DNA of 64,000 nt from Niabella yanshanensis (lineage in GTDB: Bacteria > Bacteroidota > Bacteroidia > Chitinophagales > Chitinophagaceae): contig NZ_CP139960.1 in NCBI RefSeq assembly GCF_034424215.1, forward strand, positions 4,092,001 through 4,156,000, given 5' to 3'. The notes below the pieces were generated by a model. That model did no database searches, had not been told where the DNA came from, and saw nothing but the letters and a program-made list of their open reading frames with translations. The position numbers were made by a program, and so were the translations under genes. Positions 23,755-46,991 of the stretch are shown in pieces; within the stretch, counting starts at the first letter, position 1, and each line of letters starts with the position of its first letter.

Positions 23755-23782
23755 TATGACTAGTATAAGTAAACATAAAGCT

Positions 23783-24716: not shown

Positions 24717-24750
24717 GTCTGATGTCGGATCTCTGATCTCGGATATCTTG
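24717..24750. repeat. Degenerate word repeat (GTCTGATGTCGGATCTC type)
   Basis: GTCTGATGTCGGATCTCTGATCTCGGATATC is built of imperfect copies of CTGATNTCGGAT and lies 40 nt before the second S23-type gene. The same style occurs at 45087-45145. Confidence 0.5.
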
Positions 24751-24789
24751 ATAGGAAGATGAGTGAAATGATTCTAAAAACTTTTAGCA

Positions 24790-25155: not shown

Positions 25156-25201
25156 TCGTGTTTTTAGGATTTAAATCTATACATCATAAATAGAAAGATA
25201 T

Positions 25202-27543: not shown

Positions 27544-27552
27544 AACCGTATC

Positions 27553-28077
27553 ATGGTAATAAAAGTGCCGATGAATAAATCAAAAGCCGTCAAAAGATTT
27601 ATGTTCTTTGTGATGCTGCTTTTAGTATTTACTTTAATGGCGATACAGCCTCAGCTATTTACAAGAAGCAGCAGCACTGGCTTTATAAAAGTAGCCGGCT
27701 TTATAGGTTCTTTTATTTTTATTATTGGTGCAGCATTTGTTGCGCAAAAATTGTTTAATAAAAACCCCGGTCTGATAATAGATAATGAAGGCATAGCCGA
27801 TGGTTCTTTGGGAGTAATGTTTCCAAAACTAAGCTGGGCACAGGTTACGGAGATCAGGCACCTGGAGAATAATGGTGATCACTTCATAAAGCTCACTATT
27901 AAAGACCCGGAAAAATATATGGCTACAGAGTTGAACCCATTGAAAAGAAAAATGCTGGAGATGAATTATAATACCCTGCGTACGCCCGTTAACATTGCGG
28001 CCAGTCGCTTAAAAATAGATTTCCAGGAATTATATACACTTATAAAGGATAAACGGGAAGAATTTAAAAACAGTTGA
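27553..28077 (+). CDS. STM3941 family membrane protein
   Basis: A 174-residue protein with two adjacent membrane helices (FMFFVMLLLVFTLMAIQP and VAGFIGSFIFIIGAAFVAQKLF), followed by KNPGLIIDNEGIADGS and SWAQVTEIRHLE, a pleckstrin-like cytoplasmic region characteristic of STM3941-family proteins. Function is unknown. It starts 9 nt after hemN and precedes hemL by 46 nt, so it is probably co-transcribed with the haem genes. An alternative ATG lies six codons downstream. Confidence 0.72.
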   Translation: MVIKVPMNKSKAVKRFMFFVMLLLVFTLMAIQPQLFTRSSSTGFIKVAGFIGSFIFIIGAAFVAQKLFNKNPGLIIDNEGIADGSLGVMFPKLSWAQVTEIRHLENNGDHFIKLTIKDPEKYMATELNPLKRKMLEMNYNTLRTPVNIAASRLKIDFQELYTLIKDKREEFKNS

Positions 28078-28123
28078 CAGCGTCAATGTATCATATCAGG
28101 AATTAATTAAAGCATAACCAATA

Positions 28124-29413
28124 ATGTATAGTTACCAGTCAAGTAAGGCTTTATTCGAGAGGGCGCAACAGAGTATCCCGGGCGGTGTTAACTCACCGGT
28201 ACGGGCATTTAAAAGTGTGGGCGGTACACCCTTGTTTATCAAAAAAGCGAAAGGCGCTTATTTGTATGATGCAGATGATAATCAATATATAGACTATATC
28301 GCATCATGGGGGCCTATGATTTTGGGACATGCTTACGAACCCGTGGTCAAAGCTATTTGCGAGAAAGCTCAGTATTCCACATCCTTTGGTGCACCTACAG
28401 AACTGGAAATTGACATGGCTGAATTGATAAGATCTATTACACCTAATGTAGACCTGATACGGATGGTAAGCAGTGGCACCGAAGCCTGCATGAGCGCACT
28501 ACGTGTGGCCAGAGGCTATACCGGGCGCAACAGGTTTATAAAATTTGAAGGCTGTTATCATGGACATGCGGATGCGTTTTTGGTAAAGGCTGGAAGCGGG
28601 GTGGCTACTTTTAATATACAAACAGTTCCCGGCGTAACAGCTGCAATCGCTAACGATACGCTTACCTGCGCTTATAATGATCTGGACGCGGTTAAGAAAC
28701 TGGTTGCAGACAATAAAGATGAAGTGGCGGCTATAATTGTTGAACCGGTAGCGGGCAATATGGGCTGCATTCTTCCCCAACCAGGTTTCCTGGAAGGTCT
28801 GCGACAGGTTTGTGATAGTAATGGTATCGTGCTCATTTTTGATGAGGTGATGACAGGTTTTCGTCTGGCTTTGGGTGGCGCACAGGAAAGGCTGGGTGTG
28901 GCTGCGGACCTGGTCACTTACGGAAAAGTAATCGGGGCAGGTATGCCGGTAGGTGCTTTTGGTGGTAAGCGGGAGATCATGGAAGTGGTAGCGCCATTGG
29001 GCAATGTTTACCAGGCAGGTACGCTCAGTGGCAATCCCATCGCTATGATCGCCGGTTTTACTTTATTGAGTGAAATGAAAGCAAACCCATCGTTGTTACA
29101 GGAGTTGGATAATAAAACTTTATACCTGAAAGATGGACTGGAAAAAGTATTGCATGCATGGGGACAACCTTATACGATCAATCATCTGGGAAGCATGATT
29201 AGCATACACTTTGGTCCCCATCCCGTAACTGATTTTGCAACTGCAGCAGCTTGCGATATTGAGAGGTTTAAACAGTTTTTCCATGCAATGTTGAAACGGG
29301 GAATCTACCTGCCTCCATCTGCTTACGAAAGCTGGTTCTTAAACAATGCATTGACTTATGAAGATCTTGATGCAACAATAAAAGCTGTAGGGGAAAGCTT
29401 AGCTGAATTATAA
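28124..29413 (+). CDS. hemL: Glutamate-1-semialdehyde 2,1-aminomutase HemL
   Basis: A 429-residue PLP enzyme that turns glutamate-1-semialdehyde into 5-aminolevulinate. The PLP lysine lies in [19 protein letters not shown], with the phosphate-binding [14 protein letters not shown] and the [11 protein letters not shown] segment also clear. The protein starts typically ([23 protein letters not shown]). It closes the haem gene run. With hemA it completes the C5 route to 5-aminolevulinate. Confidence 0.96.
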
Positions 29414-30985: not shown

Positions 30986-31003
30986 ATTTCAAACGTTGTA
31001 ATT
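30986..31003. promoter_or_regulatory. Putative LacI-family operator upstream of susC
   Basis: The 18-bp sequence ATTTCAAACGTTGTAATT is repeated without change at 36384-36401. It has an imperfect palindrome with a central CG (TTnnAACGTTnnAA), the usual form of LacI/PurR-family sites. A lacI gene closes the same locus at 41526-42530. The site lies about 235 nt before the susC start. Confidence 0.65.
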
Positions 31004-31237: not shown

Positions 31238-34200
31238 ATGAGAAAGAACAACCGGGGATTTTCCAGGTCAGGCCTTTGCCTGCTGCTATTTTTATGCATT
31301 TCGTACCTGTCGTTTGCACAAAGTACCAAAACGATATCGGGCTCTGTTATGGACGACAAGCAGCAACCGTTGCGCGGTGTAAGTGTTGTTGTTAAGAATT
31401 CAAAATTAGGAGCCGTCACCAATGAGAGAGGGATTTACACACTAAAAGGAGTTCCGGCGGATGCTACGCTGGTGTTTAGTTATACAGGTTTTACCGATCA
31501 GGAAATAAGGGTGACTGATCAATCGGCCATTAATATTACAATGTCTACTACTGCTGTCGATCTGAACGAAGTAGTGGTAATTGGCTATGGTACTACCAGG
31601 AGAAAAGACCTTACCGGTGCTGTTGCATCGGTACAAACCAGTAAGTTAGAAAAGGAGGCGCCGCGGTCGGTACAGGACTTATTACGTGGCAATGCCGCCG
31701 GTATTATTATCGGGCAAAGCAACCCGGGCAATACAGCCAGAGGGGATGCTGATATATTAGTAAGAGGCTCAGGTACGTTGAAGGCTGGAAGCAGCCCCTT
31801 AAATGTGGTAGACGGGGTAATATTCGACGGTACATTTGCCGATATTAACCCTAATGACATACAATCTATAGACATCTTGAAAGATGCAAGTGCCACGGCG
31901 GTATTTGGAGCGAAAGCTGCGAATGGTGTTATTTTAATTACTACAAAAAAAGGTGCGGCTGGTAAACCCCGTATCACCTTCAATGCTAACCTAGGAATCG
32001 TAGAAAAAGCCGGAATGCCCCGTGTAATGAATGCCGAAGAGTTTTTAAACTGGCGGCATGATTATGAGGTGGGTAAAAGAACAGATGCATTTCTCAATCA
32101 GTACCCCGAGATGTTCATAGATCCGCGTAAGCTGACGAATGTAACCCAGCTGGATTGGTACAACTATGATCAGAAGACGCCAGTTACCTCTGTAACTGAA
32201 GAGCAATTAACCAGGGCCTGGTTAACCCGTCTTGAGTTAAAAGCACCGGAGATAGACAACTATCTAGCTAATAAAATAACAAACTGGCAGGATCTTGTTT
32301 TTCAAAAAGGATTTCAACAGGATTACACGACCAGTGTTTCTAATAAAAATGAAAACTCCAGCTATTATTTTTCACTCAATTATGTAGACCGGGAAGGAAT
32401 TATCGTCGGCAATCGTTTCACCAATTTCAGGACCCGGTTAAACCTCGAGTCGAAAATCACCTCTTTTTTAAAAGTGGGTGCTAATACTAATTTTGCGGTA
32501 CGGAACGAAGGCTTTTTACAGTCAGACTGGGGACAGTCTGCTATTATCTCTCCTTACGGGTCAAATAATTTAGATGATACAGCCAGCATTTACCGGAGGC
32601 TTCCGACAGGCGATGCCACGCCGGTAAACCCATTTCATGACAATCTGTACCGCGATCGTAAAAACATGTATAATACTTTAAACTCAAGTATTTATGGTAT
32701 TATAACATTGCCATTGGGCTTTGAGTTTCAGTCCAACTTTACGCCTTCTTTTACATGGCATGACTATTACAGCCATGAGTCTTCAAAAAATCCGCAATGG
32801 ACAGCCACCGGCGGAAGTACAGAAAGAACCAATGAGAAAACATACAACTGGCAAATCGATAACGTATTGAGATGGAAGAGACGTTTCGATGATCACAATA
32901 TTGAAGTAACCCTGTTGCAGAATGCCGAAAAGGGACAATTTTGGCGTACCAAAGCCACAACAACCAACTACTATGGGGCAGATATTTTAAGCTGGCACCG
33001 TATACAGGCCGGTACTAACCCCTTTAACGAAAGCGAAGATACCTACCGTACCGGAGATGCCCTTATGGCAAGATTATATTATTCTTTGAAGGATAAATAC
33101 ATGCTCACGGCTTCTGTAAGACGGGATGGCTATTCTGCTTTTGGTGCGCAAAACCCCAGGGCCACCTTTCCGGCAATAGCCCTGGCATGGGATTTTTCGG
33201 AAGAAAAGTTCATGAAGAACACATCAAGCTGGCTGGACTACGGTAAGCTCAGACTCTCATGGGGTAAGAATGGCAACAGGGATATAGGACAATATGAGGC
33301 TTTATCAGATATGGTCTCCGGCTTGCATCCTTTTATTGATCAGAATGGGAAAGTATATCTCTTCCCGCAGCTTTATGTTGATCGCATGGCTAACCTGGGG
33401 TTAAAATGGGAGGGTAAAACCTCTTATAATATAGGGTTGGATTTCTCCCTGTTCAAAAGACGGCTGAGTGGAAGTATCGATGCCTATACAGCTACTACGG
33501 TTGATTTGTTAGTAGACCGTGCACTTCCCGAAATTATTGGTTTTAACAGTGTAGCGGCTAACCTGGGGCAGTTAAATAACAAGGGCTTTGAAATTTCTTT
33601 AAGCGGAAATGTTATTCAAAAAACAGATTTTAACTGGAACTCTGGTTTTATATTCATGCTGAACCGGAGAAAGATTGTGCATCTGTATGGTGATATGATT
33701 GATGTTAAAGATGATAGTGGAAATGTAATTGGCCAGAAAGAAGCTGACGATATTAAGAATAAGTGGTTTATAGGTAGGGATCCGGACCAGTTCTGGGATT
33801 ACGAGCGAATCGGTGTGTGGCAAAGGGGAGAAGAAGCAGTGGCAAAGAAATATAATGATAGTGCACCGGGAGATTTTAAATACAAAGACCAAAATGGCGA
33901 TAGTGTGATGACCGATGCCGATAGGGTTTTTCTTGGATATAAAAGTCCCCGTTTCCGCTGGACGTGGAGAAATGATTTCGACTATAAAAGATTTACGCTT
34001 TCGATATTTATTTATTCCAACTGGGGACAAAGAGAGCAGTTTAACAGGGCAAGTAATAACTCAAGTTTTCCGGACCGAACTACCGATTATGTTCAACCGC
34101 GCTGGACTTCGGATAACCCTATCAATGACTATGCTAGGATTGGTTCCAAAAATATTGGCACCAACTACGTGGAGCGATCCTTTGTACGGCTGGACAATGT

Positions 34201-34423
34201 TTCATTATCTTATGGCTTACCGCAACCCCTGTTAAATAAAATCAGTGTTCAATCAGCGCGCATTTCATTTGCTGTAAGAAATGTAGCTTTTTGGGCACCA
34301 CATTGGAAGTATGGAGATCCGGAATCAGGAGGATATCGTACGCGTAATTCAGAAGGGAATGAATATACACCCGGGCAACCGATGCCTCGTACTTATAATC
34401 TGAGCTTCAATTTAACACTTTAA
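31238..34423 (+). CDS. SusC/RagA family TonB-linked outer-membrane transporter
   Basis: A 1061-residue TonB-dependent transporter. It has a signal peptide (ending YLSFAQ), an N-terminal carboxypeptidase-like regulatory domain (about residues 30-110, ISGSVMDDKQQPLRGVSV), the SusC signature LNEVVVIGYGTTRRKDLTGAV, a plug with DVLVRG-like IDILKDASATAVFGAKAANG, and a 22-strand barrel ending in an alternating strand (RTYNLSFNLTL). It imports an oligosaccharide or glycoside together with the SusD-like partner encoded 11 nt downstream. The substrate cannot be read from sequence. Regulation by the LacI-type protein of this locus is likely. Confidence 0.95.
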   Translation: MRKNNRGFSRSGLCLLLFLCISYLSFAQSTKTISGSVMDDKQQPLRGVSVVVKNSKLGAVTNERGIYTLKGVPADATLVFSYTGFTDQEIRVTDQSAINITMSTTAVDLNEVVVIGYGTTRRKDLTGAVASVQTSKLEKEAPRSVQDLLRGNAAGIIIGQSNPGNTARGDADILVRGSGTLKAGSSPLNVVDGVIFDGTFADINPNDIQSIDILKDASATAVFGAKAANGVILITTKKGAAGKPRITFNANLGIVEKAGMPRVMNAEEFLNWRHDYEVGKRTDAFLNQYPEMFIDPRKLTNVTQLDWYNYDQKTPVTSVTEEQLTRAWLTRLELKAPEIDNYLANKITNWQDLVFQKGFQQDYTTSVSNKNENSSYYFSLNYVDREGIIVGNRFTNFRTRLNLESKITSFLKVGANTNFAVRNEGFLQSDWGQSAIISPYGSNNLDDTASIYRRLPTGDATPVNPFHDNLYRDRKNMYNTLNSSIYGIITLPLGFEFQSNFTPSFTWHDYYSHESSKNPQWTATGGSTERTNEKTYNWQIDNVLRWKRRFDDHNIEVTLLQNAEKGQFWRTKATTTNYYGADILSWHRIQAGTNPFNESEDTYRTGDALMARLYYSLKDKYMLTASVRRDGYSAFGAQNPRATFPAIALAWDFSEEKFMKNTSSWLDYGKLRLSWGKNGNRDIGQYEALSDMVSGLHPFIDQNGKVYLFPQLYVDRMANLGLKWEGKTSYNIGLDFSLFKRRLSGSIDAYTATTVDLLVDRALPEIIGFNSVAANLGQLNNKGFEISLSGNVIQKTDFNWNSGFIFMLNRRKIVHLYGDMIDVKDDSGNVIGQKEADDIKNKWFIGRDPDQFWDYERIGVWQRGEEAVAKKYNDSAPGDFKYKDQNGDSVMTDADRVFLGYKSPRFRWTWRNDFDYKRFTLSIFIYSNWGQREQFNRASNNSSFPDRTTDYVQPRWTSDNPINDYARIGSKNIGTNYVERSFVRLDNVSLSYGLPQPLLNKISVQSARISFAVRNVAFWAPHWKYGDPESGGYRTRNSEGNEYTPGQPMPRTYNLSFNLTL

Positions 34424-34434
34424 TTTACTCTATC

Positions 34435-36309
34435 ATGAAAAGATATTTTTATATAAACATAGTACTCATATCGTTGATCATGCTGGCAGCTTGTAGCAAG
34501 GACTGGCTCAAGCCGGATCAATTATCCAAATATGACCCCAATACTGCTTTGGTGAACGCTCAGGGAATGTATTTTGCTTTAGCTGCCTGTGAACGGAATA
34601 TGCGCCACGAATATTTTGGAGATGCAGCACCTATTCTGACCGAAATTATACAATCTGATGTAGCAGTAGAAGGAACTACGGATAAAGCCGGCCCTCAAAT
34701 GAACATGGATGCTTCACTTTTACCGGATGCGCAGTTAAATCATAACGACTACACCAAGGTAGGCTGGTATTGGTATGAAGGCTATAAAGGTATTAAGTAT
34801 GCCAATACGGTTATATCAAGAATTGATACGGCAGTATTTAAAGGTGAGGCTGAAAAGAATGCCGTATTAGGGGCGGCTTATTTCCACAGGGCTTACCGCT
34901 ATTTTAAACTCACACACCAGTTTGGAGATGTTCCATTTCTTGATAAGGAATACAGCGAACCTAAATATGATTTTTATACCTATGACCGCTGGAGTATCCT
35001 GGAACGTATGAAAAAGGACCTGGAATTTGCTTATCAATGGGTGCCAGAGAAGGTAGACCGGGGCCGGGCTTCAAGAGCTGCCTGTGGGGTATTATTAATG
35101 AAGGTTTGTATGGCTTTGACAGATTTTGACCGGGCGATCCAGGTAGGTAAGGAAATTGTTGCCATACATCCTTTGATGAAAAACCGCTTTACCAGCAATG
35201 CCACAAAACCCAATACCAACCTGATGTTTGATTTACACAGCGTGGAAGCTAAGCTAAGCACATCTAATACCGAAGGCCTGATGTATGTAGTAGCCTATCC
35301 TGAAACTGAACTCGCGGAAAGTCCCAATGCACGTATTAGAAGCATGCGTAATGCGGTTCCGTTCTGGAATAGCGGCAATATCAAAACCCCTGATGGCAGG
35401 GCCGGAACCAGTGTTATTATAGATCCTGCGGAATCGGACCCGGCTATGGATCTGAATAAAACGTATGGCAGGGGCATTGGAAGATTACGCCCTACCTGGT
35501 ACTTTACCAACGAAATATGGCGCGCCGATAAGGAAGCAAGCGATACAAGAGGAATATTAAATAAGGATAGCTGGCGTAGGATGGAGGATTTAAAGTACAA
35601 TCATCCCGATCTGAAGAAGAACAATAATGCATGGTATGGTAAGAATTTTGTTAAACCTGCGGCTATGAGTGTGGAGGATACAATACGTTTATGGTTCTCC
35701 TGGCCCCATTATAAAGTGTTTGTTCCTGATCCGACGCAGGCCCAGTGGGAAGGAGGCGAAACGCCATGGTATATTTATCGTTCGGCAGAGGTTTTCCTGA
35801 TGATAGCAGAATGTTATTATTGGAAAGATGATTTGGCACAGGCTGCCATAAATCTTAACGAAGTGCGTGCGAGAGCCGGCGCATTGCCCCTGACAGCATC
35901 TGATGTAAACATAGGAGAAATACTGGACGAAAGGGCACGTGAGTTGTATTATGAAGAAAACCGGCATATTGAGCTGGTAAGGATTGCCTATACTTATGCT
36001 AAAACAAAAAAGCCTTGCGAAATATTTGGAGGACGCGTGTATCAACTGGAGAATATAAGTGGGCCAGGCGGAACAAACTCCAATATAAAACAGGCGGGCG
36101 TTAATTTCTGGTACGACAGGGTAGTAAGCAGGAGCAATTTTTACAATAAAGGTGTAAGACACCGATGGGCCGAGTATAAGGTGAGTGTGCATCACCTGCT
36201 GTGGCCGGTGCCGGCTAATGCTATTAATACCAACTTAAAGGGCGTAATCAATCAGAATATTGGTTACCCGGGTGCAGAAAAAAATGTAGCACCCTTAAAG
36301 GTAGAATAG
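34435..36309 (+). CDS. SusD/RagB family nutrient-binding lipoprotein
   Basis: A 624-residue surface lipoprotein with lipobox MLAAC (signal ISLIMLAACSKDWL). SusD hallmarks include EKNAVLGAAYFHRAYRYFKLTHQFGDVPF (quoted in part: AAYFHRAYRYF) with the TPR-like helical scaffold, PWYIYRSAEVFLMIAECYYW, and ARAGALPLTASD followed by ILDERARELYYEENRHIELVR. It caps the SusC barrel and binds the substrate. Length is somewhat above the usual 500-580. It is followed by 237 nt holding the second operator copy. Confidence 0.95.
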   Translation: MKRYFYINIVLISLIMLAACSKDWLKPDQLSKYDPNTALVNAQGMYFALAACERNMRHEYFGDAAPILTEIIQSDVAVEGTTDKAGPQMNMDASLLPDAQLNHNDYTKVGWYWYEGYKGIKYANTVISRIDTAVFKGEAEKNAVLGAAYFHRAYRYFKLTHQFGDVPFLDKEYSEPKYDFYTYDRWSILERMKKDLEFAYQWVPEKVDRGRASRAACGVLLMKVCMALTDFDRAIQVGKEIVAIHPLMKNRFTSNATKPNTNLMFDLHSVEAKLSTSNTEGLMYVVAYPETELAESPNARIRSMRNAVPFWNSGNIKTPDGRAGTSVIIDPAESDPAMDLNKTYGRGIGRLRPTWYFTNEIWRADKEASDTRGILNKDSWRRMEDLKYNHPDLKKNNNAWYGKNFVKPAAMSVEDTIRLWFSWPHYKVFVPDPTQAQWEGGETPWYIYRSAEVFLMIAECYYWKDDLAQAAINLNEVRARAGALPLTASDVNIGEILDERARELYYEENRHIELVRIAYTYAKTKKPCEIFGGRVYQLENISGPGGTNSNIKQAGVNFWYDRVVSRSNFYNKGVRHRWAEYKVSVHHLLWPVPANAINTNLKGVINQNIGYPGAEKNVAPLKVE

Positions 36310-36383
36310 ATTTGAGCTTGAAGAGTTTATACAATGTTATAAAAGAAGGATAACTGATGGTTTCGGTATTAAGACTTCTGTTA

Positions 36384-36401
36384 ATTTCAAACGTTGTAAT
36401 T
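36384..36401. promoter_or_regulatory. Second copy of the putative LacI operator
   Basis: Identical over 18 bp to 30986-31003. It lies 75 nt after the susD stop and about 145 nt before the oxidoreductase start, so the oxidoreductase run probably has its own controlled promoter. Confidence 0.65.
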
Positions 36402-36437
36402 TAAAAGGTACTTGCGCTCTTGATGCGAACCTTTATC

Positions 36438-36459
36438 TTAGTACTCTTACAGGTACTAA
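36438..36459. repeat. Inverted repeat downstream of the second operator
   Basis: TTAGTAC and GTACTAA flank an 8-nt spacer. The arms resemble in style those at 31003-31028, and each lies downstream of an operator copy. A -7-like GATATTTG is at 36484-36491. Confidence 0.4.
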
Positions 36460-36546
36460 AATGATTTTGCTTGCCTGGCGATTGATATTTGAATAAGAAC
36501 AAAGCCAGCTTTAACCATAATATCTTACGATAGTAAATTTTAAAAA

Positions 36547-37977
36547 ATGTCGTCCAACACAAAAAAAGGAAGAAGGAGTTTTTTGAAGAATTCTTTTACA
36601 CTTACTGCCGGTGGAATACTCTTACAGGGAGCGCCAACTATTGTACCCTCAACGGTCTTTGGGAGAAACGCGCCCAGTAATAAGATCAATATTGCACAAA
36701 TAGGTTGCGGGCGTATTGCACGTACGCATGACCTGCCTGAGACTTTTAGAAATGATATTGCCCGGATCATTGCCATAGCCGATGTAGATAAATACCGGCA
36801 GCAAAAGGGAAAGGAATTAATTGAAGGTTGGTACGCCAAAAAGACAGGACAGGTCAATTATGTCAATGTAAGATTGTATGATGACTATCATGAGCTTCTG
36901 GCCAATAAAGACATCGATGCAGTTATCATCAGTACGCCCGATCATTGGCATGCGCAACCTGCCATGGAAGCTGCTATGGCGGGCAAACATATCTATCTTC
37001 AAAAGCCAACTTCACTTACTATAGAAGAAGGACGGCACATGAGCGACGTAGTTAGGGCAAAGGGTGTGGTTTTTCAGTTAGGCAGTCAGCAGCGATCGGT
37101 TAATCCCTGGCCGCAGTTTAAGAAGGCTTGTGAGCTGGTTCGCAATGGCCGCATAGGCAAATTGAAAGAAGTTCATGTTGGGCTGCCTGCCGACCCTCCC
37201 GGTGGTAATACCGCGGAGATGCCGGTTCCCCGGGAATTGAATTATGATATGTGGTTGGGTTCTACCCCCTATATATACTATACACAGGATAGGGTGCACC
37301 ATCCGACTGATCTGGAATCAAGACCGGGATGGTTGAGGTTGGAGCAATTTGGTGCGGGAATGATCACCGGCTGGGGTGTGCATCATATAGATATCGCCCA
37401 TTGGGGAATGAATACAGAATTAACCGGCCCGATTGAAGTAAGCGGCGCTGCCCAATTTCCTAAAGCAGGTTTGTGGAATGTACATGGCGATTATGAAGTA
37501 GAAGCCAAATATGCCAATGGAGTGACGATGCATGTGAATAGTAAAAATCCTAATGGGGTTAAGTTTGTGGGAACGGACGGATGGATCTTTGTATCACGCG
37601 GCAATGTGGGTGTCACAGCAACAGATCCAACCAGCGGCGATAAAGCCCAACCTAAGGCGTTTAATGCCAGTAATCCTGCTATATTAGATTCTGTTATTAA
37701 ACCGAATGAAGTTCATTTATATGAAAGTTCCGAGCAACATAGAAACTGGCTGGAATGTATTCAAAATAAAAAAACAACCATCAGTCCTGCAGAGATTGCC
37801 CACCGCTCCTGCAGCGCCTGCCTGGTAGCTTTTGCTGCCATGAAAATGGGAACTAAATTGTATTGGGATCCTGTTAAGGAGGTCTTTAAAAATAATGATG
37901 AGGCCAATAAGCTTTTAAGCAGACCCCAGCGTCATCCATATGGCACCAGTTATGTTTATAATAAATTTAAAAAATAG
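36547..37977 (+). CDS. Gfo/Idh/MocA family oxidoreductase, Tat-exported
   Basis: A 476-residue NAD(P)-type dehydrogenase. The N-terminus has a Tat motif (GRRSFLKNS, Arg9-Arg10), so it should be exported folded with its cofactor. The Rossmann motif is QIGCGRIART (about residues 51-60), and the family QKP motif (IYLQKPTSLT, in place of EKP) is present. The active-site region includes GWGVHHIDIAHWG. Relatives oxidise sugar hydroxyls, often at C3, or act on 3-keto sugars with tightly bound NAD. It is the first of four genes spaced 1-36 nt apart. The second oxidoreductase gene follows after one base. Confidence 0.92.
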   Translation: MSSNTKKGRRSFLKNSFTLTAGGILLQGAPTIVPSTVFGRNAPSNKINIAQIGCGRIARTHDLPETFRNDIARIIAIADVDKYRQQKGKELIEGWYAKKTGQVNYVNVRLYDDYHELLANKDIDAVIISTPDHWHAQPAMEAAMAGKHIYLQKPTSLTIEEGRHMSDVVRAKGVVFQLGSQQRSVNPWPQFKKACELVRNGRIGKLKEVHVGLPADPPGGNTAEMPVPRELNYDMWLGSTPYIYYTQDRVHHPTDLESRPGWLRLEQFGAGMITGWGVHHIDIAHWGMNTELTGPIEVSGAAQFPKAGLWNVHGDYEVEAKYANGVTMHVNSKNPNGVKFVGTDGWIFVSRGNVGVTATDPTSGDKAQPKAFNASNPAILDSVIKPNEVHLYESSEQHRNWLECIQNKKTTISPAEIAHRSCSACLVAFAAMKMGTKLYWDPVKEVFKNNDEANKLLSRPQRHPYGTSYVYNKFKK

Positions 37978-37978
37978 T

Positions 37979-39364
37979 ATGATCCGCAGCTCGTTTGTTT
38001 TATTGTCTGTTATGTCTGTAATGGCTTGCAATTCCAATGAAGCCCAAAAGGAAAAAAGAGGCTCTGATATTACACTGGTAACGCTCGATCCCGGGCATTT
38101 TCATGCGGCACTGGTTCAAAAAACGATGTATCCGGGCGTAGATAGTAATGTGTATGTATATGCCCCGGAAGGACCGGATCTGAAGCTGCATCTTGACAGG
38201 ATCAATGCATATAACACCCGTGCAGATCAGCCTACTCACTGGAACGAACAGGTATATACAGGTACAGATTTTTTTCAGAAAATGATTGCTGAAAAAAAAG
38301 GAAACATCGTGGTGATGGCGGGCAATAATCAGAAGAAAACAGAGTATATCTTTAAAACGGTAGATGCCGGTATGAATGTATTGGCCGATAAGCCAATGGT
38401 GATTAACAGCGATGGGTTTGAGCTGCTTAAAAAGGCTTTTACAAAAGCTGCAGAAAACAAAGTATTGCTGTATGATATCATGACCGAGCGATTCGAAATC
38501 AATACCATGCTGCAAAGAGAATTTTCTCAGGCTAAAAAGCTCTTTGGAGAATTAGAAAAAGGAACACCGGATAACCCGGCGGTAACCAAGGAAAGCGTTC
38601 ATTATTTTTACAAGTTCGTTTCAGGTAATGTGTTACAGCGTCCTTCCTGGTTTATGGATGTGATGCAACAGGGAGAAGGAATTGTGGATGTGACCACCCA
38701 TTTGGTGGATCTGGTGCAATGGGAAAGTTTCCCGGGCCAGGTATTGGATTATAATAAAGATGTAGCTTTGATTTCAGCAAAGCGCTGGCCTACGAATATG
38801 ACGCTAAGTCAATTTAACGCTATCACCAAACAAAATGCGTTTCCCGAATACCTCAAAAAAGACCTGATCAATGATTCTACATTAAGCGTGTACAGCAATG
38901 GAGAAATTAACTACAAGTTGCGTGGGGTTCATGCTAAGGTTTCCGTTACCTGGGGATACAAAGCTCCGGAAGGAACGGGCGATACGCATTACTCTATTAT
39001 GAGGGGAACCCGCACCAATCTTATAATAAAACAAGGAAAGGAAGAAAATTACAGGCCTGTTTTATATATAGAGCCGGTTGGTAAAAAGGATGCTGATTAT
39101 GAGAAAGATTTAAACGAAGCATTGCAAACAGTAGAGGAAAAATTCCCGGGGATTGGTGTAGAAAAAACAGCAAAGGGATGGCGGGCGGTTATACCTGAGA
39201 AGTACAATACAGGCCATGAGGCGCATTTTGGCCAGGTAACAGAAAGCTACCTGAAATATTTAAAGGATGGTAAGCTGCCTGATTGGGAAGTGCCTAATAT
39301 GATCACCAAATATTATATCACTACATCGGCATTGGAGCTGGCAAAAAAAACTTCAGCAAAATAA
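37979..39364 (+). CDS. Oxidoreductase lipoprotein, Gfo/Idh-like with Bacteroidota C-terminal domain
   Basis: A 461-residue protein of the group annotated as putative oxidoreductase C-terminal domain proteins. The start at 37979 gives a lipobox (SVMSVMAC); the ATG at 37940 inside the previous gene would spoil the signal. The N-terminal half (VTLDPGHFHAALVQKTMYPG, VVMAGNNQKKTEYIFK, NVLADKPMVI) is Rossmann-like with DKP in place of EKP. The C-terminal half carries VDVTTHLVDLVQWE. It is anchored in the periplasm or at the surface. Pairing of two such oxidoreductases is typical of oxidative glycoside-processing loci. Confidence 0.85.
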   Translation: MIRSSFVLLSVMSVMACNSNEAQKEKRGSDITLVTLDPGHFHAALVQKTMYPGVDSNVYVYAPEGPDLKLHLDRINAYNTRADQPTHWNEQVYTGTDFFQKMIAEKKGNIVVMAGNNQKKTEYIFKTVDAGMNVLADKPMVINSDGFELLKKAFTKAAENKVLLYDIMTERFEINTMLQREFSQAKKLFGELEKGTPDNPAVTKESVHYFYKFVSGNVLQRPSWFMDVMQQGEGIVDVTTHLVDLVQWESFPGQVLDYNKDVALISAKRWPTNMTLSQFNAITKQNAFPEYLKKDLINDSTLSVYSNGEINYKLRGVHAKVSVTWGYKAPEGTGDTHYSIMRGTRTNLIIKQGKEENYRPVLYIEPVGKKDADYEKDLNEALQTVEEKFPGIGVEKTAKGWRAVIPEKYNTGHEAHFGQVTESYLKYLKDGKLPDWEVPNMITKYYITTSALELAKKTSAK

Positions 39365-39365
39365 A

Positions 39366-40634
39366 ATGAAATTAACAGACTGGGTAAATAATCGGATGCG
39401 GCGAATAAGCTGTGCATTGTTGTTCTGTGCAGTAGCTCTAACAAGTGTAAATGCGCAACGTATTGCTACGCTGCGGACCACCACAACAGGCAAAGAACAA
39501 TTGAGTATTCCCATGCAAGCCGCATTGGATGCTATTACAACATTGCCGGATAGCAGTCTTCAATTGGTTGAAGTGCGTAATGGTAAGAAAGTAAATATTC
39601 CTTTCCAGATAAGTTCGACCGCTAACGGAAGGGATTTGTACTGGCAGATAACCCCTTCCGCAGCAACAAATCGTGTATTTGAACTGGAACGTGTTACCGC
39701 CCCCAATAATTTTCCACTCATGCAGGCCAGCGAAAATAAAGGCGCTTTAACAATAGGAGATAACGGGAAGGAATTGCTGCAGTATCATTTTGAAACAGTG
39801 TATCCGCCTGAAGGTATTGATACAGCCTATAAACGCAGCGGATTTATACACCCTTTAAATACACCGTCGGGTCACGCTTTAACGCGCATTAATGCCCCCG
39901 ATCATTATCATCACTGGGGATTGTGGAATCCCTGGACACATGTGCGTTTTGAAAATGAGGTAGTTGATTTCTGGAATCTTAAAGACAGGAAAGGAACCGT
40001 TCGGTTTGCAGGATTTAACACCATTGAAGCTGGCGCTATTTATTCTGGCTTTAGTGCTTTACATGAGCATATCGTTTTTAAAAAAGATGGTACTGAAAAA
40101 ACAGCTATCAACGAAGTGCAAACAGTAAAAATTTATAAAGCCCAGCCTAAAGACGCGTACTATATTCTGGACATCAGTTCACAACTCAGTTGTGCCGGTT
40201 CTGAACCTGTATTGTTGCTGGAGTATAGATATGGTGGTCTCGGTATTCGTGCTACAGAGCAGTGGGATAATAAAAACAGCACTACCCTGACATCAGAAGG
40301 AAAAGACCGTAAGAGTGCCGATGGCAGTACTGCCCGATGGTGTCTTACCCAGGGCAGTTTGGGTAATGAGTATGGCGGCCTGGAAATGATGAGCCACCCG
40401 GCCAATTACAATCATCCTGAACCACTGAGAGTATGGCCCGAAAACATGAATGGCCGCGGCGATGTCTTTTTGAATTTTTCTCCAACCAAAAATAAGAACT
40501 GGTTATTGGAGCCGGGCAAGAGCTATCTTTTGAAGTATCGGTTTTTGATTTTTGATAATAAGCTTACGGGAGCCCAGGCAGAACAAGCATGGCGATCTTT
40601 TGCACATCCGCCAAAACTTCTTGTTCAAAAATAA
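39366..40634 (+). CDS. DUF6807 (PmoA-like) family exported protein
   Basis: A 422-residue protein with a signal peptide (RRISCALLFCAVALTSVNAQ), starting one base after the previous stop. The conserved centre reads INAPDHYHHWGLWNPWTHVRFEN (quoted in part: PDHYHHWGLWNPW), the His-rich signature of the DUF6807 family, with SHPANYNHPEPLRVWPENMNG near the end. The family has been labelled PmoA-like but its reaction is not established. The histidines look able to bind a metal or act in acid-base chemistry. The position between the oxidoreductases and ThuA suggests it acts on the oxidised sugar. Confidence 0.82.
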   Translation: MKLTDWVNNRMRRISCALLFCAVALTSVNAQRIATLRTTTTGKEQLSIPMQAALDAITTLPDSSLQLVEVRNGKKVNIPFQISSTANGRDLYWQITPSAATNRVFELERVTAPNNFPLMQASENKGALTIGDNGKELLQYHFETVYPPEGIDTAYKRSGFIHPLNTPSGHALTRINAPDHYHHWGLWNPWTHVRFENEVVDFWNLKDRKGTVRFAGFNTIEAGAIYSGFSALHEHIVFKKDGTEKTAINEVQTVKIYKAQPKDAYYILDISSQLSCAGSEPVLLLEYRYGGLGIRATEQWDNKNSTTLTSEGKDRKSADGSTARWCLTQGSLGNEYGGLEMMSHPANYNHPEPLRVWPENMNGRGDVFLNFSPTKNKNWLLEPGKSYLLKYRFLIFDNKLTGAQAEQAWRSFAHPPKLLVQK

Positions 40635-40670
40635 ATGATCCTGTAAACGCCAATCAACGATGTTAAAAAA

Positions 40671-41516
40671 ATGACGCAGATGAAATATAGTTTAATGCTG
40701 GTGTGGCTGTTAATGGCTGGTTCCATTTCTTTAGAGGCGCAAACACCTGTTAACTGGAAATCCGTAAAAGTGCTGGTTTACAAAAAAAATGGTAAGGGCT
40801 TTGTACATGATAATATTCCTTATGCCGCGCAGGCCATTATAGACCTGGGGAAAAAGCATGGTTTTAAAGTAGACACTTCTTCGCTTCCATCTGTAATGAC
40901 TGAAGATAACTTAAAACAATACCGGATGCTGATTTTTACAAGCACCAATAATGATGTTTTTGATACGGATGCGCAACGCCTGGCTTTTAGAAGGTATATT
41001 GAAGCAGGTGGTGGCTTTGTGGGTATTCATTCGGTTACGGGAACGGAAAGAAACTGGGACTGGTTTAAAATGTTGTTAGGCGGCACTTTTTCCTGGCACG
41101 ATAAATTTCAGAAGTTTAAAGTACAGGTAATACACCCGAAACACCCGTCTATGAAAGGTACGCCCAGGGTATGGTACAAGGAAGATGAATGTTATTTTGC
41201 CAAAGAGCTCTACCCCGGTACACATGTTGTAATGGTAAATGATTTTTCAGGTTTAGATACCAGCAATGCAAAGCTCAACGAAACGCGCACAAAAAATGCC
41301 GGTAATCTTAAACAGTATGTTCCCAGCGCCTGGTATCACGACTTTGATGGAGGTACCACCTGGTGTACTACATTAGGACATGATAAAAAAGACTATGCTG
41401 ATCCCGTATATCTAAAACATATCATGGGAGGTATTGAATATGTGGCCGCTACAGTGAAGAAAATTGATTTTTCGAAATCCTATGCTCTCTCCTTCAATGA
41501 ACCGGTAAAATACTAG
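40671..41516 (+). CDS. ThuA-like domain protein, exported
   Basis: A 281-residue protein with a signal peptide (MLVWLLMAGSISLEAQ) and a class I glutamine-amidotransferase-like fold of the ThuA family: KVLVYKKNGKGFVHDNIPYA at the start, GGGFVGIHSVTGTE in the nucleophile-elbow region but with His rather than Cys, and RVWYKEDECYF. ThuA was first found beside the Gfo/Idh dehydrogenase ThuB in trehalose use, where 3-keto sugars arise. It may process the keto sugar made here. A second in-frame ATG at 40680 is an equal start candidate. Last gene of the run. Confidence 0.83.
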   Translation: MTQMKYSLMLVWLLMAGSISLEAQTPVNWKSVKVLVYKKNGKGFVHDNIPYAAQAIIDLGKKHGFKVDTSSLPSVMTEDNLKQYRMLIFTSTNNDVFDTDAQRLAFRRYIEAGGGFVGIHSVTGTERNWDWFKMLLGGTFSWHDKFQKFKVQVIHPKHPSMKGTPRVWYKEDECYFAKELYPGTHVVMVNDFSGLDTSNAKLNETRTKNAGNLKQYVPSAWYHDFDGGTTWCTTLGHDKKDYADPVYLKHIMGGIEYVAATVKKIDFSKSYALSFNEPVKY

Positions 41517-41525: not shown

Positions 41526-42530
41526 TTAATGTATAATCAGCTCACAGGGTATTTTTATTGATACAGGTGGCTCGGATCCTGTAGGATTATTAATAAGCTT
41601 CATTAATAAAGAAGCTGCCTTTAAGCCCATTTCGTAAGAATTCTCCTCCAGCGAAGCCTTGGGCTTAATATCCAGGTATTTTATAAGGGGGAGATTGCCG
41701 AAGCCGATAATATCTATTTTAGGGAGTAGTTTGGGATGGTGGATCTTTACATAATTGATCGCATCCAGGCTTACATAAGTTTTGAATACAAAAAATGCGG
41801 TAGGAGGATTTTTTACTTTTAGCAATTCTCTCATAGCCTGATGCGTTTTCTCTTCAGAGAAATCTATTTCCCGTAGCAATTGCAGATCAAAATCTATTTT
41901 AAGCTTTTCCAGGGCTTTCTTATAAGCTTCCAACCTTTGGTGACTGGTGCTGAGTATTTTAGGTCCCATCAGGTGAGCAATACGACGATGCCCCAGTTGA
42001 TATAAGTAATCAATAGCCAATGAGCCAGCATGTATATTGTCTGCGGTAACATTGTTAAAAATAGGCTGACCAAAAGAGCGTGTGAGGAATACAACCGGTA
42101 TGCCATTTTGCTCAAGCTGTGTAAAGAGATCAGATTTGTTGGTATTCTTGGAAATGGTGATGATAACGCCATCTACCCGGTTGCTGATCAGGTTTTTGAT
42201 GATCTGCTCTTCCTTATCCGGGTCTTCATGTGATTGGGCAATAATTACCTGGTATTTATGTTTACCCGCGATTTCCTCAACACCGCGTATAGCAGCTACA
42301 AAAAACTGGTCAATAAGATCGGGAATAACTACTCCCAGTGTGAAAGACTTACTCTGTTTAAAATGCCTGGCGGCTTCATTGGGAACATAGTTCCAATCCT
42401 TGGCCAGCCGGCGCACCCGCTCTTTCGTTAAATCACTAATATTGGCATGATTGCTCAGCGCTTTAGAAACTGTTGATACGGACATATTCAGTTTCTTTGC
42501 TATGTCTTTTATAGTGACCCCTTTTTTCAC
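41526..42530 (-). CDS. LacI family transcriptional regulator
   Basis: A 334-residue regulator with an N-terminal helix-turn-helix (VTIKDIAKKLNMSVSTVSKALS) and hinge (YVPNEAARHFKQSKSFTLGVV), each quoted in part, followed by a periplasmic-binding-protein-like sugar domain. It converges on the ThuA gene with 9 nt between stops. The likely start is the GTG at 42530 (first residues MKKGVTIKDIA); an upstream TTG at 42545 adds five residues. It is the obvious candidate to bind the two identical sites at 30986 and 36384. A degenerate copy, TTTCAAAAGTTCA, at 42551-42563 could allow autoregulation. Confidence 0.92.
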   Translation of the reverse strand: MKKGVTIKDIAKKLNMSVSTVSKALSNHANISDLTKERVRRLAKDWNYVPNEAARHFKQSKSFTLGVVIPDLIDQFFVAAIRGVEEIAGKHKYQVIIAQSHEDPDKEEQIIKNLISNRVDGVIITISKNTNKSDLFTQLEQNGIPVVFLTRSFGQPIFNNVTADNIHAGSLAIDYLYQLGHRRIAHLMGPKILSTSHQRLEAYKKALEKLKIDFDLQLLREIDFSEEKTHQAMRELLKVKNPPTAFFVFKTYVSLDAINYVKIHHPKLLPKIDIIGFGNLPLIKYLDIKPKASLEENSYEMGLKAASLLMKLINNPTGSEPPVSIKIPCELIIH

Positions 42531-42657
42531 AGGCAAAATATACAAACAATTTTCAAAAGTTCACCTGAATTAGTGAATAGAGCGCTTAAAGGATATTTTT
42601 GGCTACGATTTATATATTTTGTTCTTTTGCTACCTTGTTTAATCAATTCTACATATA

Positions 42658-44205
42658 ATGATACAGGTGGGCGGTACAAAACTGTCTTTGAAAGATTTCG
42701 AGGAAATTCTTCTTTATAAAAAGCCGATTGCCCTGGATAAGGCTGCTATTGAAAGAGTACAGGCATCCTTTGATTTTTTAAAGCAATTCTCCAATCATAA
42801 ACTTATTTATGGCATCAATACCGGATTCGGGCCAATGGCTCAATACAAGGTAAGTGATGACAATATACTTCAGTTACAGTATAATCTCATTCGTAGCCAC
42901 AGCAGTGGCGGTGGCACTGTATTAAACCCTTTATTAGGCAGGGCGGTAATGATTGCCCGGCTGAACAACCACTTACAGGGCTACTCCGGAGTGCATCTGG
43001 AGTTGGTGGAGTTAATGACTGCCATGATCAACGCCGACCTGGTTCCTTGTATTTACGAACATGGAGGAGTAGGCGCCAGTGGCGACCTGGTGCAGTTGGC
43101 GCACCTGGCATTAGGTGTAATCGGAGAGGGAGAAGTATGGTACCAGGGACAATTGATGCCTGCTGCGCAAGGATTTGAGTTGGCTGGTTTAAAGCCTTTG
43201 CAGGTGCATATCAGGGAAGGTCTTTCACTGATCAATGGAACTTCGGCTATGACCGGTGTTGGATTATTAAATATTATCCGTGCGCATAAACTGGTAGATT
43301 GGTCGGTGACACTCTCGGCCATTACCAATGAGCTGATGGAAGTATATGATGATCATTTTTCTCATGAACTGAATATTGTAAAACATCACAAAGGACAGAA
43401 TTATATAGCTGCGGCTTTCAGGGATGTTTTGGCTGGTAGCCAGATGATCCGCAGCCGCTCTGAGCATTTATATAACCCTGAGAATATCCAGCATGATGTA
43501 TTTGAAGATAAGGTTCAGGAGTATTACTCTTTGCGTTGTGTAACACAGGTGCTCGGGCCGGTATATGACGCGCTGGTACAGGCTGAAAACACAGTAGTCA
43601 ACGAACTGAACTCGGTGAACGACAACCCTGTAGTCGATGTGGCCAATCAGAATATTTTTCATGGCGGCAATTTCCATGGCGATTATGTTTCCTTCGAAAT
43701 GGACAAACTGAAGATTGCGATCACCAAGCTCACCATGTTAAGTGAGCGTCAGCTTAACTATTTCCTGAATAGCAGGCTAAACCAGAAGTTTCCTCCGTTT
43801 GTAAACCTCGGAGTGCTCGGGTTTAATTTCGGAATGCAGGGTATACAGTTTACTGCCACTTCTACAACGGCTGAAAACCAAACGCTTTCATTCCCTATGT
43901 ATGTACATAGTATCCCTAATAATAACGATAACCAGGATATTGTAAGTATGGGCTTTAATGCTGCCCAACTTACGAAAAAAGTGATCGATAATGCGTATGA
44001 GGTTGTTGCCATACAGGCCATGACACTATTACAAGCCGTAGACTACCTGGAGTGCCAGGAAAAAATGTCGCCTAAAACAAAAGCGGTGTATGATGCCCTC
44101 CGGAACATCTTTCCAAAATTTGTGGAAGACAGTCCGCTGTATAAAAGCCTGGCTAAGGTACGTACCTGGCTGGAAGCTAATGCGCCGGCAACTATTTATG
44201 GCTAG
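42658..44205 (+). CDS. Aromatic amino acid ammonia-lyase, probably tyrosine ammonia-lyase
   Basis: A 515-residue enzyme of the histidine/phenylalanine/tyrosine ammonia-lyase family. The self-forming MIO cofactor comes from Ala140-Ser141-Gly142 (GGVGASGDLVQLAHLAL), and the catalytic tyrosine is in YGINTGFGPMAQY. The selectivity pair is Ser80-His81 (LQYNLIRSHSSG). The sequence recalls the tyrosine ammonia-lyase of Flavobacterium johnsoniae, which also has RSHSSG and MYVHSIPNNNDNQDIVSMG. It would make 4-coumarate for flexirubin-type pigments; a histidine ammonia-lyase label is the likely automatic annotation. No hut genes are nearby. A possible -7 box TACCTTG is at 42631-42637. Confidence 0.85.
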   Translation: MIQVGGTKLSLKDFEEILLYKKPIALDKAAIERVQASFDFLKQFSNHKLIYGINTGFGPMAQYKVSDDNILQLQYNLIRSHSSGGGTVLNPLLGRAVMIARLNNHLQGYSGVHLELVELMTAMINADLVPCIYEHGGVGASGDLVQLAHLALGVIGEGEVWYQGQLMPAAQGFELAGLKPLQVHIREGLSLINGTSAMTGVGLLNIIRAHKLVDWSVTLSAITNELMEVYDDHFSHELNIVKHHKGQNYIAAAFRDVLAGSQMIRSRSEHLYNPENIQHDVFEDKVQEYYSLRCVTQVLGPVYDALVQAENTVVNELNSVNDNPVVDVANQNIFHGGNFHGDYVSFEMDKLKIAITKLTMLSERQLNYFLNSRLNQKFPPFVNLGVLGFNFGMQGIQFTATSTTAENQTLSFPMYVHSIPNNNDNQDIVSMGFNAAQLTKKVIDNAYEVVAIQAMTLLQAVDYLECQEKMSPKTKAVYDALRNIFPKFVEDSPLYKSLAKVRTWLEANAPATIYG

Positions 44206-44329
44206 TTTTTTGTCGCCGTATGCATAACGGTATTAAACCTTGCTGTTCGCTGGGGCGGGCAGTTGCATACTTCGGCCATTCGCCAATGGACATCACTATT
44301 AAATATTACCTATCAACAATCAACAAAAT

Positions 44330-45058
44330 ATGAATTGTGCTCTTGTAACCGGTGGCTCTCGTGGTATTGGCAAAGCTATTTGCATAAAGCTGGCTACCAT
44401 GGGCTTTTATGTTTTAATTAACTACAAAGGCAATCAGCAGAAAGCAGAAGAAACATTGGCTGAAGTAAGGGCTGCGGGTAGCGATGGTGAATTATTGCAG
44501 TTTGATGTAGCAAATCGCGAAGAAGTACAAACCGTGTTAAATGGCTGGATGGAGGCCAATACCGGTAAAGTAATTGAAGTGTTGGTGAATAATGCCGGTA
44601 TTAAAGATGATGTGCTGCTGATGTGGATGAAGGATGAGCAGTGGGATAGTGTGCTGGATACCAGCCTCGGAGGCTTTTTTAATGTAACGCGTATTATAGT
44701 GAATAGCATGCTACGTCAAAGGTACGGGCGCATAGTGAATGTGGTTTCCCTGAGCGGTTTAAAAGGCCTGGCCGGGCAAACGAATTATTCTGCCGCAAAA
44801 GGCGGTGTCATTGCAGCAACCAAAGCATTGGCGCAGGAGGCAGGTAAACGGAATATCACGGTGAACGCTGTTGCTCCCGGCTTTATTAAGACGGATATGA
44901 CGGTTGATATAGACGAGGCACAAATGAAACAGCTCATACCGGCCAACCGTTTTGGTACCCCCGAAGAAGTGGCGCATGCTGTTGGCTTTTTTGTAACCAA
45001 AGAAGCTGGTTATATTACCGGACAGGTGCTTTCTGTAAACGGAGGTTTATACACATAA
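44330..45058 (+). CDS. fabG: 3-oxoacyl-ACP reductase (FabG-like SDR)
   Basis: A 242-residue short-chain dehydrogenase. The NADP motif TGGSRGIGKAI, the NNAG motif (VLVNNAGIKDD), catalytic Ser in VVSLSGLKG, and the YSAAKGG motif are all present, as is the ending ITGQVLSVNGG typical of FabG. It reduces 3-ketoacyl-ACP to the 3-hydroxy form. It follows the lyase gene by 124 nt and faces the KAS III gene; together they resemble part of an aryl-polyene/flexirubin pathway rather than primary fatty acid synthesis. Confidence 0.88.
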   Translation: MNCALVTGGSRGIGKAICIKLATMGFYVLINYKGNQQKAEETLAEVRAAGSDGELLQFDVANREEVQTVLNGWMEANTGKVIEVLVNNAGIKDDVLLMWMKDEQWDSVLDTSLGGFFNVTRIIVNSMLRQRYGRIVNVVSLSGLKGLAGQTNYSAAKGGVIAATKALAQEAGKRNITVNAVAPGFIKTDMTVDIDEAQMKQLIPANRFGTPEEVAHAVGFFVTKEAGYITGQVLSVNGGLYT

Positions 45059-45086
45059 TGAAGAACGGGTCTCAAGTACCGCTAAA

Positions 45087-45145
45087 GTCTGGTATCTAAC
45101 ATCCAACATCTAGCATCCAACATCTGATATCTGGCATCTAACACC
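45087..45145. repeat. Degenerate word repeat between fabG and the KAS III gene
   Basis: Imperfect copies of ATCTAACATCCAAC and ATCTGATATCTGGC fill the space up to the KAS III stop codon. No stem-loop terminator is evident for either gene. Confidence 0.55.
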
Positions 45146-46943: not shown

Positions 46944-46991
46944 GATTTTTAATAGTTAGATTTTAGACAATTAGTAATGAACTGACAACTA

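Follow-up and report, generated by a model that had tools for sequence, protein, structure and literature searches.

Oxidative sugar chemistry built on Gfo/Idh/MocA proteins is known from Bacteroides, whose glycoside 3-oxidation pathway BT2157-BT2160 comprises a periplasmic glycoside 3-dehydrogenase (BT2158; PMC11300592) and a DUF1080 3-ketotrehalose hydrolase (BT2157; PMC9007349). The O-glycoside β-eliminase operon of Agrobacterium follows a logic of oxidation, elimination, hydration and reduction and cleaves by a sugar phosphate isomerase-like enzyme (PMC10628242). Here we describe a locus of six genes (susC, susD, gfo, oxC, DUF6807 and thuA; Table 1) in a stretch of 64,000 nucleotides of the Niabella yanshanensis genome (contig NZ_CP139960.1, positions 4,092,001 to 4,156,000; hereafter the window), which is probably a variant of this Gfo-based chemistry. 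As in Bacteroides, a Gfo/Idh/MocA protein is placed in the periplasm, here judged by its leader, and this protein is related to BT2158 (NCBIfam NF058561, E 7.7e-37) but scores under the family cut-off. Where Bacteroides has DUF1080, however, the locus has DUF6807, PF16490 and ThuA proteins, and its relatives are tied to glucuronate rather than to disaccharides. The reaction scheme we propose would share the Agrobacterium logic, but none of the six genes is assigned by Pfam to a sugar phosphate isomerase-like family.

Our preferred reading, to which we give a probability of roughly 0.42, is that the locus encodes a LacI-controlled periplasmic oxidoreductive module, in which SusCD imports a glucuronic-acid substrate and glucuronate is released for the UxaC-UxuAB (Ashwell) pathway; the substrate is probably small, either a glucuronide or a side-chain fragment of glucuronoxylan. 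The reading is built on the gene content, a shared cis-motif, a correlation between motif and LacI regulator, the neighbourhoods of relatives and the predicted folds, from which we infer the reaction steps. The link to glucuronate, the LacI operator and the DUF6807 fold, as they appear from sequences and a structural model, are new.

An earlier note, made from the letters alone, had placed six genes of these families at 31238-41516 with no recognisable hydrolase or lyase among them, and the open reading frames and Pfam/NCBIfam scans bear this out: at E-values up to 0.001, the six proteins have no match to any hydrolase, lyase or DUF1080 (PF06439) family. As expected of a SusCD-type polysaccharide utilisation locus, susC and susD are adjacent, with 11 nt between them, but the carbohydrate-active hydrolase or lyase that should accompany them is absent from the six proteins in these scans. 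A gap of 237 nt, which holds an operator-like motif, separates susD from gfo. The oxC frame as listed overlaps gfo, its likelier start being M14, directly past the gfo stop; DUF6807 follows oxC after 1 nt and thuA follows DUF6807 after 36 nt. Of the 12 loci fetched from the genus, 6 (L038, L040-L043 and L048) have all six genes in this order, and rearranged forms of the gene set are seen across Bacteroidota, for which reason we dismissed chance clustering; the locus is real and conserved.

Table 1. Features of the locus and its surroundings, in window coordinates.
Feature	Position	Strand	Basis
susC, SusC/RagA TonB-linked outer-membrane transporter	31238-34423	+	TIGR04056, 732.9 bits (cut-off 368)
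susD, SusD-type surface lipoprotein	34435-36309	+	PF07980 and PF14322
gfo, Gfo/Idh/MocA oxidoreductase with twin-arginine leader, module core	36547-37977	+	PF01408 and PF19051
oxC, PF16490 Oxidoreduct_C "putative oxidoreductase" lipoprotein	37940-39364 (likely start 37979)	+	470.5 bits
DUF6807 long-subfamily protein, exported	39366-40634	+	PF14100, 224 bits
thuA, ThuA-family protein, exported	40671-41516	+	PF06283, 199.9 bits (gathering cut-off 33.4)
LacI-family regulator gene, convergent with thuA, probable controller of both motif copies	41526-42545	-	PF00356 and PF00532; ortholog presence tracks motif in genus
Operator-like 17-mer TTTCAAACGTTGTAATT, copy upstream of susC	30987-31003	+	exact genome match
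Operator-like 17-mer TTTCAAACGTTGTAATT, second copy, upstream of gfo	36385-36401	+	exact genome match

The claim that all four processing proteins are exported also held when the leaders were judged by eye, gfo having a twin-arginine leader, oxC a lipoprotein signal, and DUF6807 and ThuA leaders of the Sec type. Alignments were made of each window protein with relatives of fitting length (59 of 75 for DUF6807, 43 of 60 for Gfo, 24 of 34 for oxC and 25 of 25 for ThuA). In these, R9 and F12 of the SRRxFLK-type Gfo leader are invariant and R10 is kept in at least 90% of the 44 sequences, and the lipobox Cys30 of oxC is retained in at least 90% of 25.

The operator-like 17-mer, TTTCAAACGTTGTAATT, occurs exactly in only two places of the 5.54 Mb genome, at 30987 and 36385. 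At up to two mismatches the genome holds 5 sites in total versus 7 for a reversed-pattern control, so that only the two exact sites stand out; within the window, 4 sites with up to three mismatches were observed against 0.55 expected, and a motif-like site at 48674, with 3 mismatches, was set aside as near chance. In the genus loci L038-L049, matches to at least 13 of 15 core bases are restricted to the regions upstream of susC or gfo, and L040, L043 and L048 carry the core upstream of both; in L045 the motif precedes the likely gfo start and falls inside a longer listed frame. Among the 16 other genomes of the genus, 12 have an ortholog of the LacI-family regulator (54-90% identity), and G006, G007, G011 and G016 have matches of 38-39% only. 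In the 12 genus genomes whose sequence upstream of gfo can be read, core matches of at least 13/15 lie there in all 9 that have the LacI ortholog and in 0 of the 3 that lack it (p 0.005), a count from which G013 was excluded because the region upstream of its gfo is off the contig, and for which G002, G003, G006 and G012 were not fetched. A shared operator that tracks its regulator across species is the pattern of a LacI regulon, and, judged by sequence, the susCD block and the gfo-to-thuA block look like a single regulon in which LacI probably controls both copies of the 17-mer, by binding them as we infer. Perfect 16-bp palindromes lie between divergent lacI and DUF6807 genes in Ilyomonas (L102/L056) and Parafilimonas (L122/L054); a palindrome scan of the window and 16 loci, run without a chance control, gave a 7-of-8 palindrome in L038 and none in the window.

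What the module acts on is suggested by its neighbours elsewhere. Scanning genomes with 17 DUF6807 proteins as queries yielded at least 534 confirmed relatives, of which the best 80 were analysed with up to 10 kb around them; several of these loci are short contigs, and absences are therefore soft. A Tat-type (twin-arginine translocation) Gfo is present in 60, LacI in 40, oxC in 35, ThuA in 26, susC in 22 and susD in 17, so that DUF6807 and Gfo form the core. Among the neighbour clusters, each named from one member scanned with Pfam/NCBIfam, are the UxuA mannonate dehydratase (21 loci), a cupin (16), GH3 (12), a xylulokinase-type kinase (12), GH10 xylanase (10), xylose isomerase (7), GH67 (6), CE15 glucuronoyl esterase (6) and GH115 (2), with GH43, acetyl esterases and an SSF symporter in a few. 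Markers were counted with queries from the window's own genome, except for XylB, CE15 and GH3, and the query's own locus was dropped for XylB (L095) and CE15 (L096). At least one of UxuA, GH67, GH115, GH10, CE15, XylA and XylB occurs in 38 of the 80 loci and in none of 40 random 20-kb regions (Fisher 3.6e-9), UxuA by itself in 21 of 80 against 0 of 40. Tested singly, UxuA, GH10, GH3 and XylB differ from the control, while GH67, GH115, GH43, CE15, XylA and SASA show no significant difference from 0/40.

Individual loci illustrate the association. A complete hexuronate operon in L144 encodes UxaC, a PfkB kinase, KDPG aldolase, TRAP DctP and DctM, a mannitol-dehydrogenase-type oxidoreductase, altronate dehydratase and another Gfo, followed by DUF6807-gfo-oxC. 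The same trio stands in L141 beside members of the UxuA, UxaC and TRAP clusters, a short-chain dehydrogenase/reductase (SDR) and a DUF1080 protein. GH67, GH10 and UxuA lie near the module in L107, GH115 is directly upstream of DUF6807 in L086 and L107, and GH67 is also near the module in L079, L089, L114, L132 and L140.

Genome-wide profiles were drawn from two samples, 149 genomes of relatives and 395 genomes across Bacteroidota, with p-values that ignore phylogeny. Among the relatives, 53 carry some DUF6807 and 24 were counted as having the long type; the other 29 are G002, G003 and G012, where it is broken or fragmentary, G054, where it is 24% identical, and 25 with short-type or weak matches. 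UxuA is found in all 24 long-DUF6807 relatives versus 71 of 149 overall (p 1.6e-9), and GH67 or GH115 in 17 of 24 versus 28 of the 125 others (p 8e-6). Across the phylum, UxuA is again present in 24 of 24 genomes with the long type versus 105 of 395 overall (Fisher 1.8e-15), and GH115 in 10 of 24 versus 52 of 395 (p 3e-4). When only UxuA-positive genomes are compared, GH115 is not enriched with long DUF6807 (10/24 versus 39/81 without; p 0.65), and there is thus no DUF6807-GH115 tie beyond UxuA. In G002, G003 and G012, which are among the less complete genomes of the genus, DUF6807 is in pieces or interrupted by stops, probably a matter of assembly quality.

Several observations weigh against the glucuronate-releasing module as we read it. 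UxuA is also present in 27 of the 29 relatives with other DUF6807 types, versus 20 of 96 without DUF6807, so that the UxuA profile is one of DUF6807 genomes at large, not of the long type, and it may reflect a polymer-degrading lifestyle; in the sample of 395, the 15 genomes with weaker DUF6807 include 7 with UxuA and 1 with GH115, and UxuA is present in 49 of the 52 GH115 genomes. The score of 330 bits above which a DUF6807 was called long was chosen once the gap between 337 and 276 was known, G028 among the 24 relatives is UxuA-positive by a fragment of 42 positions, and the profile tests carry no correction for phylogeny. None of the seven markers occurs in 42 of the 80 loci, the window's sisters included; the random control regions were drawn from 12 genomes within the same family and the loci from wider Bacteroidota, and two of the 40 overlap each other and one the edge of L038. 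The enzymes of L144 include altronate ones, which are of the galacturonate type. In the window's own genome, the nearest UxuA is about 105 kb from the locus, and the best motif match upstream of it is 12/15, that upstream of the other UxuA 9/15. The Gfo, finally, scores 127 bits against the 750-bit cut-off of the NCBIfam glycoside 3-dehydrogenase model NF058561. We still consider it likely that the module feeds glucuronate catabolism, with a confidence lowered by the presence of UxuA alongside other DUF6807 types.

Loci with and without ThuA differ in their hydrolases. Genes of the GH3, GH10, GH43, GH67, GH115 and CE15 families, which are those the counts cover, occur in 1 of 26 loci with ThuA and in 22 of 54 without (p 4.5e-4, over lineages that are not independent); a GH18 gene lies near the ThuA-bearing locus L069. 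In turn, susC accompanies ThuA, being present in 15 of 26 loci with it and 7 of 54 without. From this near-exclusion and pairing, there appear to be two locus forms, one with SusCD and ThuA and without the listed hydrolases, which is that of the window, and one of xylan loci with hydrolases and no ThuA, a pattern that would fit ThuA standing in for a hydrolase.

The nearest PDB fold to the AlphaFold2 model of Gfo (predicted local distance difference test, pLDDT, 87.1) is 8tdf, the AL3 glucoside-3-dehydrogenase of Alistipes (8tdf/8tdh; E 3.1e-23, template-modelling score, TM, 0.65; 17-19% identity), followed by Caulobacter aldose-aldose oxidoreductase and Zymomonas GFOR, with the P2B11 glucuronide-3-dehydrogenase (8tdi) at rank 46. 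Entries 8tdf-8tdi belong, we believe, to a paper in Nature (2024) on an alternative pathway of glycan breakdown, and the partner enzymes of the AL3/P2B11 system are presumably of families other than those here. The Gfo retains G53-x-G55, D79 and K153-P154 across the 44 sequences, and its C-terminal domains are GFO_IDH_MocA_C2 and C3 in the Pfam scan. GH109 and other NAD-dependent glycosidases of the Gfo/Idh/MocA family raise the thought that a Tat-exported Gfo with bound NAD could by itself be a complete redox-neutral glycosidase; the match to the GH109 structure 2ixa is partial, covering N-terminal residues 36-174 only, and no dedicated GH109 model search was made. The second oxidoreductase, oxC, is close to PDB 4oo3 (E 1.8e-176), a "hypothetical protein"; in the region of its nucleotide loop an invariant PGHFHAAL (25 sequences) replaces the usual GxGxxG, which makes binding of NAD by oxC doubtful.

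DUF6807 is modelled by AlphaFold2 (pLDDT 93.7, predicted TM score, pTM, 0.89) as nearly all beta, with no α/α toroid. Its best Foldseek match is the PL26 exo-rhamnogalacturonan lyase 5xqo (E 1.5e-8, TM 0.52, root-mean-square deviation 9.0, 11% identity), followed by GH36, LacZ and other multi-domain glycoside hydrolases with TM near 0.3; a heparan sulfate lyase is at rank 41, and galactose mutarotases begin at rank 43 (best E 4.4e-3). The likeness to PL26 (5xqo and others) is a loose one in the beta part; the PL26 fold includes an α/α toroid, which the DUF6807 model lacks. As read from the fold list, the shared part loosely resembles a mutarotase-like sandwich. The model is thus unlike a glycoside hydrolase catalytic domain, and the idea of a classical hydrolase, a check the earlier note had raised, was dropped with PL26 as best fold, hydrolases at low TM and mutarotases after them. 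Residues invariant in 60 DUF6807 sequences include R157, H162, D179, H180, H182, H183, W187, D201, W203, N204, H235, E250 and D269, a set resembling an active site. Those of ThuA (26 sequences) include H46, H120, E126, H143, D172, E173 and H237; glutamine-amidotransferase-like proteins have a nucleophilic cysteine at the position that, in the alignment, is H120 of ThuA.

On our preferred reading, SusCD would take up a small glucuronic-acid-bearing substrate and Gfo, exported folded with NAD bound, would oxidise the uronic-acid ring, likeliest at C3 since its fold is kin to a glucoside-3-dehydrogenase. Elimination would then break the C1-O bond, which is beta to the ketone, and water would add to the double bond, steps that could fall to ThuA, DUF6807 and/or oxC, after which Gfo would give the hydride back and reduce the ring, so that no free periplasmic cofactor would be needed, and the freed glucuronate would enter the UxaC-UxuAB pathway. 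A Tat-exported Gfo carries its cofactor folded, as known from GFOR, and a redox-neutral cycle of oxidation, elimination, hydration and reduction is therefore favoured. We see an oxidation-elimination route as an even bet, and put the glycosidic bond as the one broken somewhat lower, as a tentative choice favoured at this locus by the kinship of the Gfo fold and by the distribution of ThuA. Should the module break glucuronides oxidatively, loci without hydrolases in other Bacteroidota genomes would become readable. No function for DUF6807 was recognised in the open-licence papers searched, where PMC10971088 mentions, in its available part, the number only; the family now gains partners and a fold, as well as a candidate for its regulator and a likely class of substrate.

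The module might instead strip the 4-O-methyl ether from 4-O-methylglucuronate (MeGlcA), the main uronic acid of hardwood xylan, yielding glucuronate (GlcA) and methanol (MeGlcA + H2O → GlcA + methanol). Gfo would oxidise C2, the C3-H would become acidic, methanol would leave from C4, water would add and Gfo would re-reduce C2, with DUF6807, oxC or ThuA responsible for elimination and hydration. The presence of GH67 and GH115 with the module in other loci favours this scheme, since several loci already have these α-glucuronidases and glycosidic cleavage looks covered there, and L141 holds DUF1080 as well as DUF6807. Against this, GH67 (6) and GH115 (2) near the 80 loci are not significantly above 0/40, the 39 of 81 UxuA-positive genomes that carry GH115 without the module mean that most genomes with both GH115 and UxuA lack it (10/24 versus 39/81, as above), the route needs C2 whereas the nearest fold of Gfo is a 3-dehydrogenase, and the mutual exclusion of ThuA and glycoside hydrolases is not predicted by it. 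We hold such demethylation to be unlikely, and slightly more so its fullest form, an exported redox-neutral O-demethylase for 4-O-methylglucuronate that would work without oxygen, corrinoid or free cofactor through a Tat-borne Gfo with bound NAD. If it does occur, it would explain the use of an abundant acidic wood-xylan sugar by such bacteria and fill a step of glucuronoxylan use for which the literature search gave no enzyme: no bacterial 4-O-methylglucuronate demethylase was recognised in the open-licence papers searched, and the available part of PMC4194401 goes from MeGlcA-xylotriose (MeGlcAXyl3) straight to "D-glucuronic acid", mentioning neither a demethylation step nor an enzyme for it.

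The earlier note had proposed oxidative cleavage of ordinary glucosides or trehalose-like sugars, with DUF6807 or ThuA replacing DUF1080. Its oxidative part agrees with the hydrolase-free locus, the exported Gfo, the 8tdf fold and the ThuA pattern, and kinship of Gfo to glucoside-3-dehydrogenases and the ThuA name, ThuA/ThuB being linked to 3-keto-trehalose, would suit a neutral sugar. The implied substrate, however, is probably wrong, as the neighbourhoods of relatives hold glucuronate and xylan genes and indicate glucuronate and glucuronoxylan. Nor is a replacement of DUF1080 by DUF6807 shown: L141 has both proteins, and 12 DUF1080 domain hits lie outside the locus in the genome of the window, so that a DUF1080 enzyme could act in trans. 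This version we consider improbable. More doubtful still is an interconversion of free hexuronates by an epimerase, isomerase or mutarotase, with no glycoside or ether broken, despite the weak match of DUF6807 to galactose mutarotases and the joining of the trio to TRAP-type and uronate genes in L141 and L144, without glycoside hydrolases among the scanned proteins; SusCD, which serves larger ligands, belongs to the regulon here, and in many relatives the module stands together with polymer-cutting genes. For an unsaturated product, a KduI/KduD route was also considered and rejected, the three scanned SDRs being below the KduD cut-offs and also below that for D-mannonate oxidoreductase.

The window's own genome encodes two UxuA, one GH67 and three GH115 proteins, and its 264-284 kb region groups matches to XylA, acetyl esterase, GH43, GH10, GH115, GH67, LacI and susC; the organism thus has genes for glucuronate release and use, far from the window. 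A palindrome related to the 17-mer, TTTCAAACGTTTGAT (minus strand, 12/15), lies at L153:13151 (G000:C1 about 4,728,150), some 3.6 kb past the second UxuA. It has a GH51-like gene on one side and on the other a gene for 351 aa, after which comes an SDR, and is a possible further site of a LacI regulator.

Some loci of relatives carry additional components. A second, short DUF6807 protein is encoded at L095:14734-15601 and in cluster c16 (L079, L087, L096 and L101), mostly directly after gfo, in loci with no oxC or ThuA match, where the two DUF6807 proteins may share the work. The cupin cluster c2 (L090:12664-13440 and 15 other loci) is often near DUF6807, whether or not gfo and oxC are there too, and the L090 cupin has a leader by eye. 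In Parapedobacter indicus (L142), of another genus, SusC and SusD are 70% and 78% identical to the window pair and lie near gfo and ThuA, which could reflect either the same ligand or transfer. Cluster c18 (L121:6213-8618, L098, L109, L126 and L130), of which one member was scanned, combines, beside the locus, a planctomycete-type cytochrome c with DUF1549/DUF1553; this is a possible electron acceptor, which would argue against a closed redox cycle.

Beyond the regulator gene, a GMC oxidoreductase adjoins a gluconate 2-dehydrogenase subunit 3 protein (46284-48704, minus strand), a pair that, we believe, resembles parts of lactose 3-dehydrogenase; as a missing dehydrogenase it was discarded, since none of the 23 ortholog loci L038-L060 has a GMC match and the sole match outside the window (32%) is in L062, where the DUF6807 is a distant one. 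Of the glycoside hydrolases found, the nearest is a GH20 hexosaminidase (49086-50984, minus strand), with no sign of belonging to the regulon. An aromatic amino acid lyase, an SDR and a KAS III-type protein are encoded together at 42658-46195, perhaps, as we suppose, as part of a pigment pathway, and 18149-29413 holds haem biosynthesis genes for porphobilinogen deaminase, ALAD, a radical SAM HemN-like protein and a class-III aminotransferase, possibly of the HemL type.

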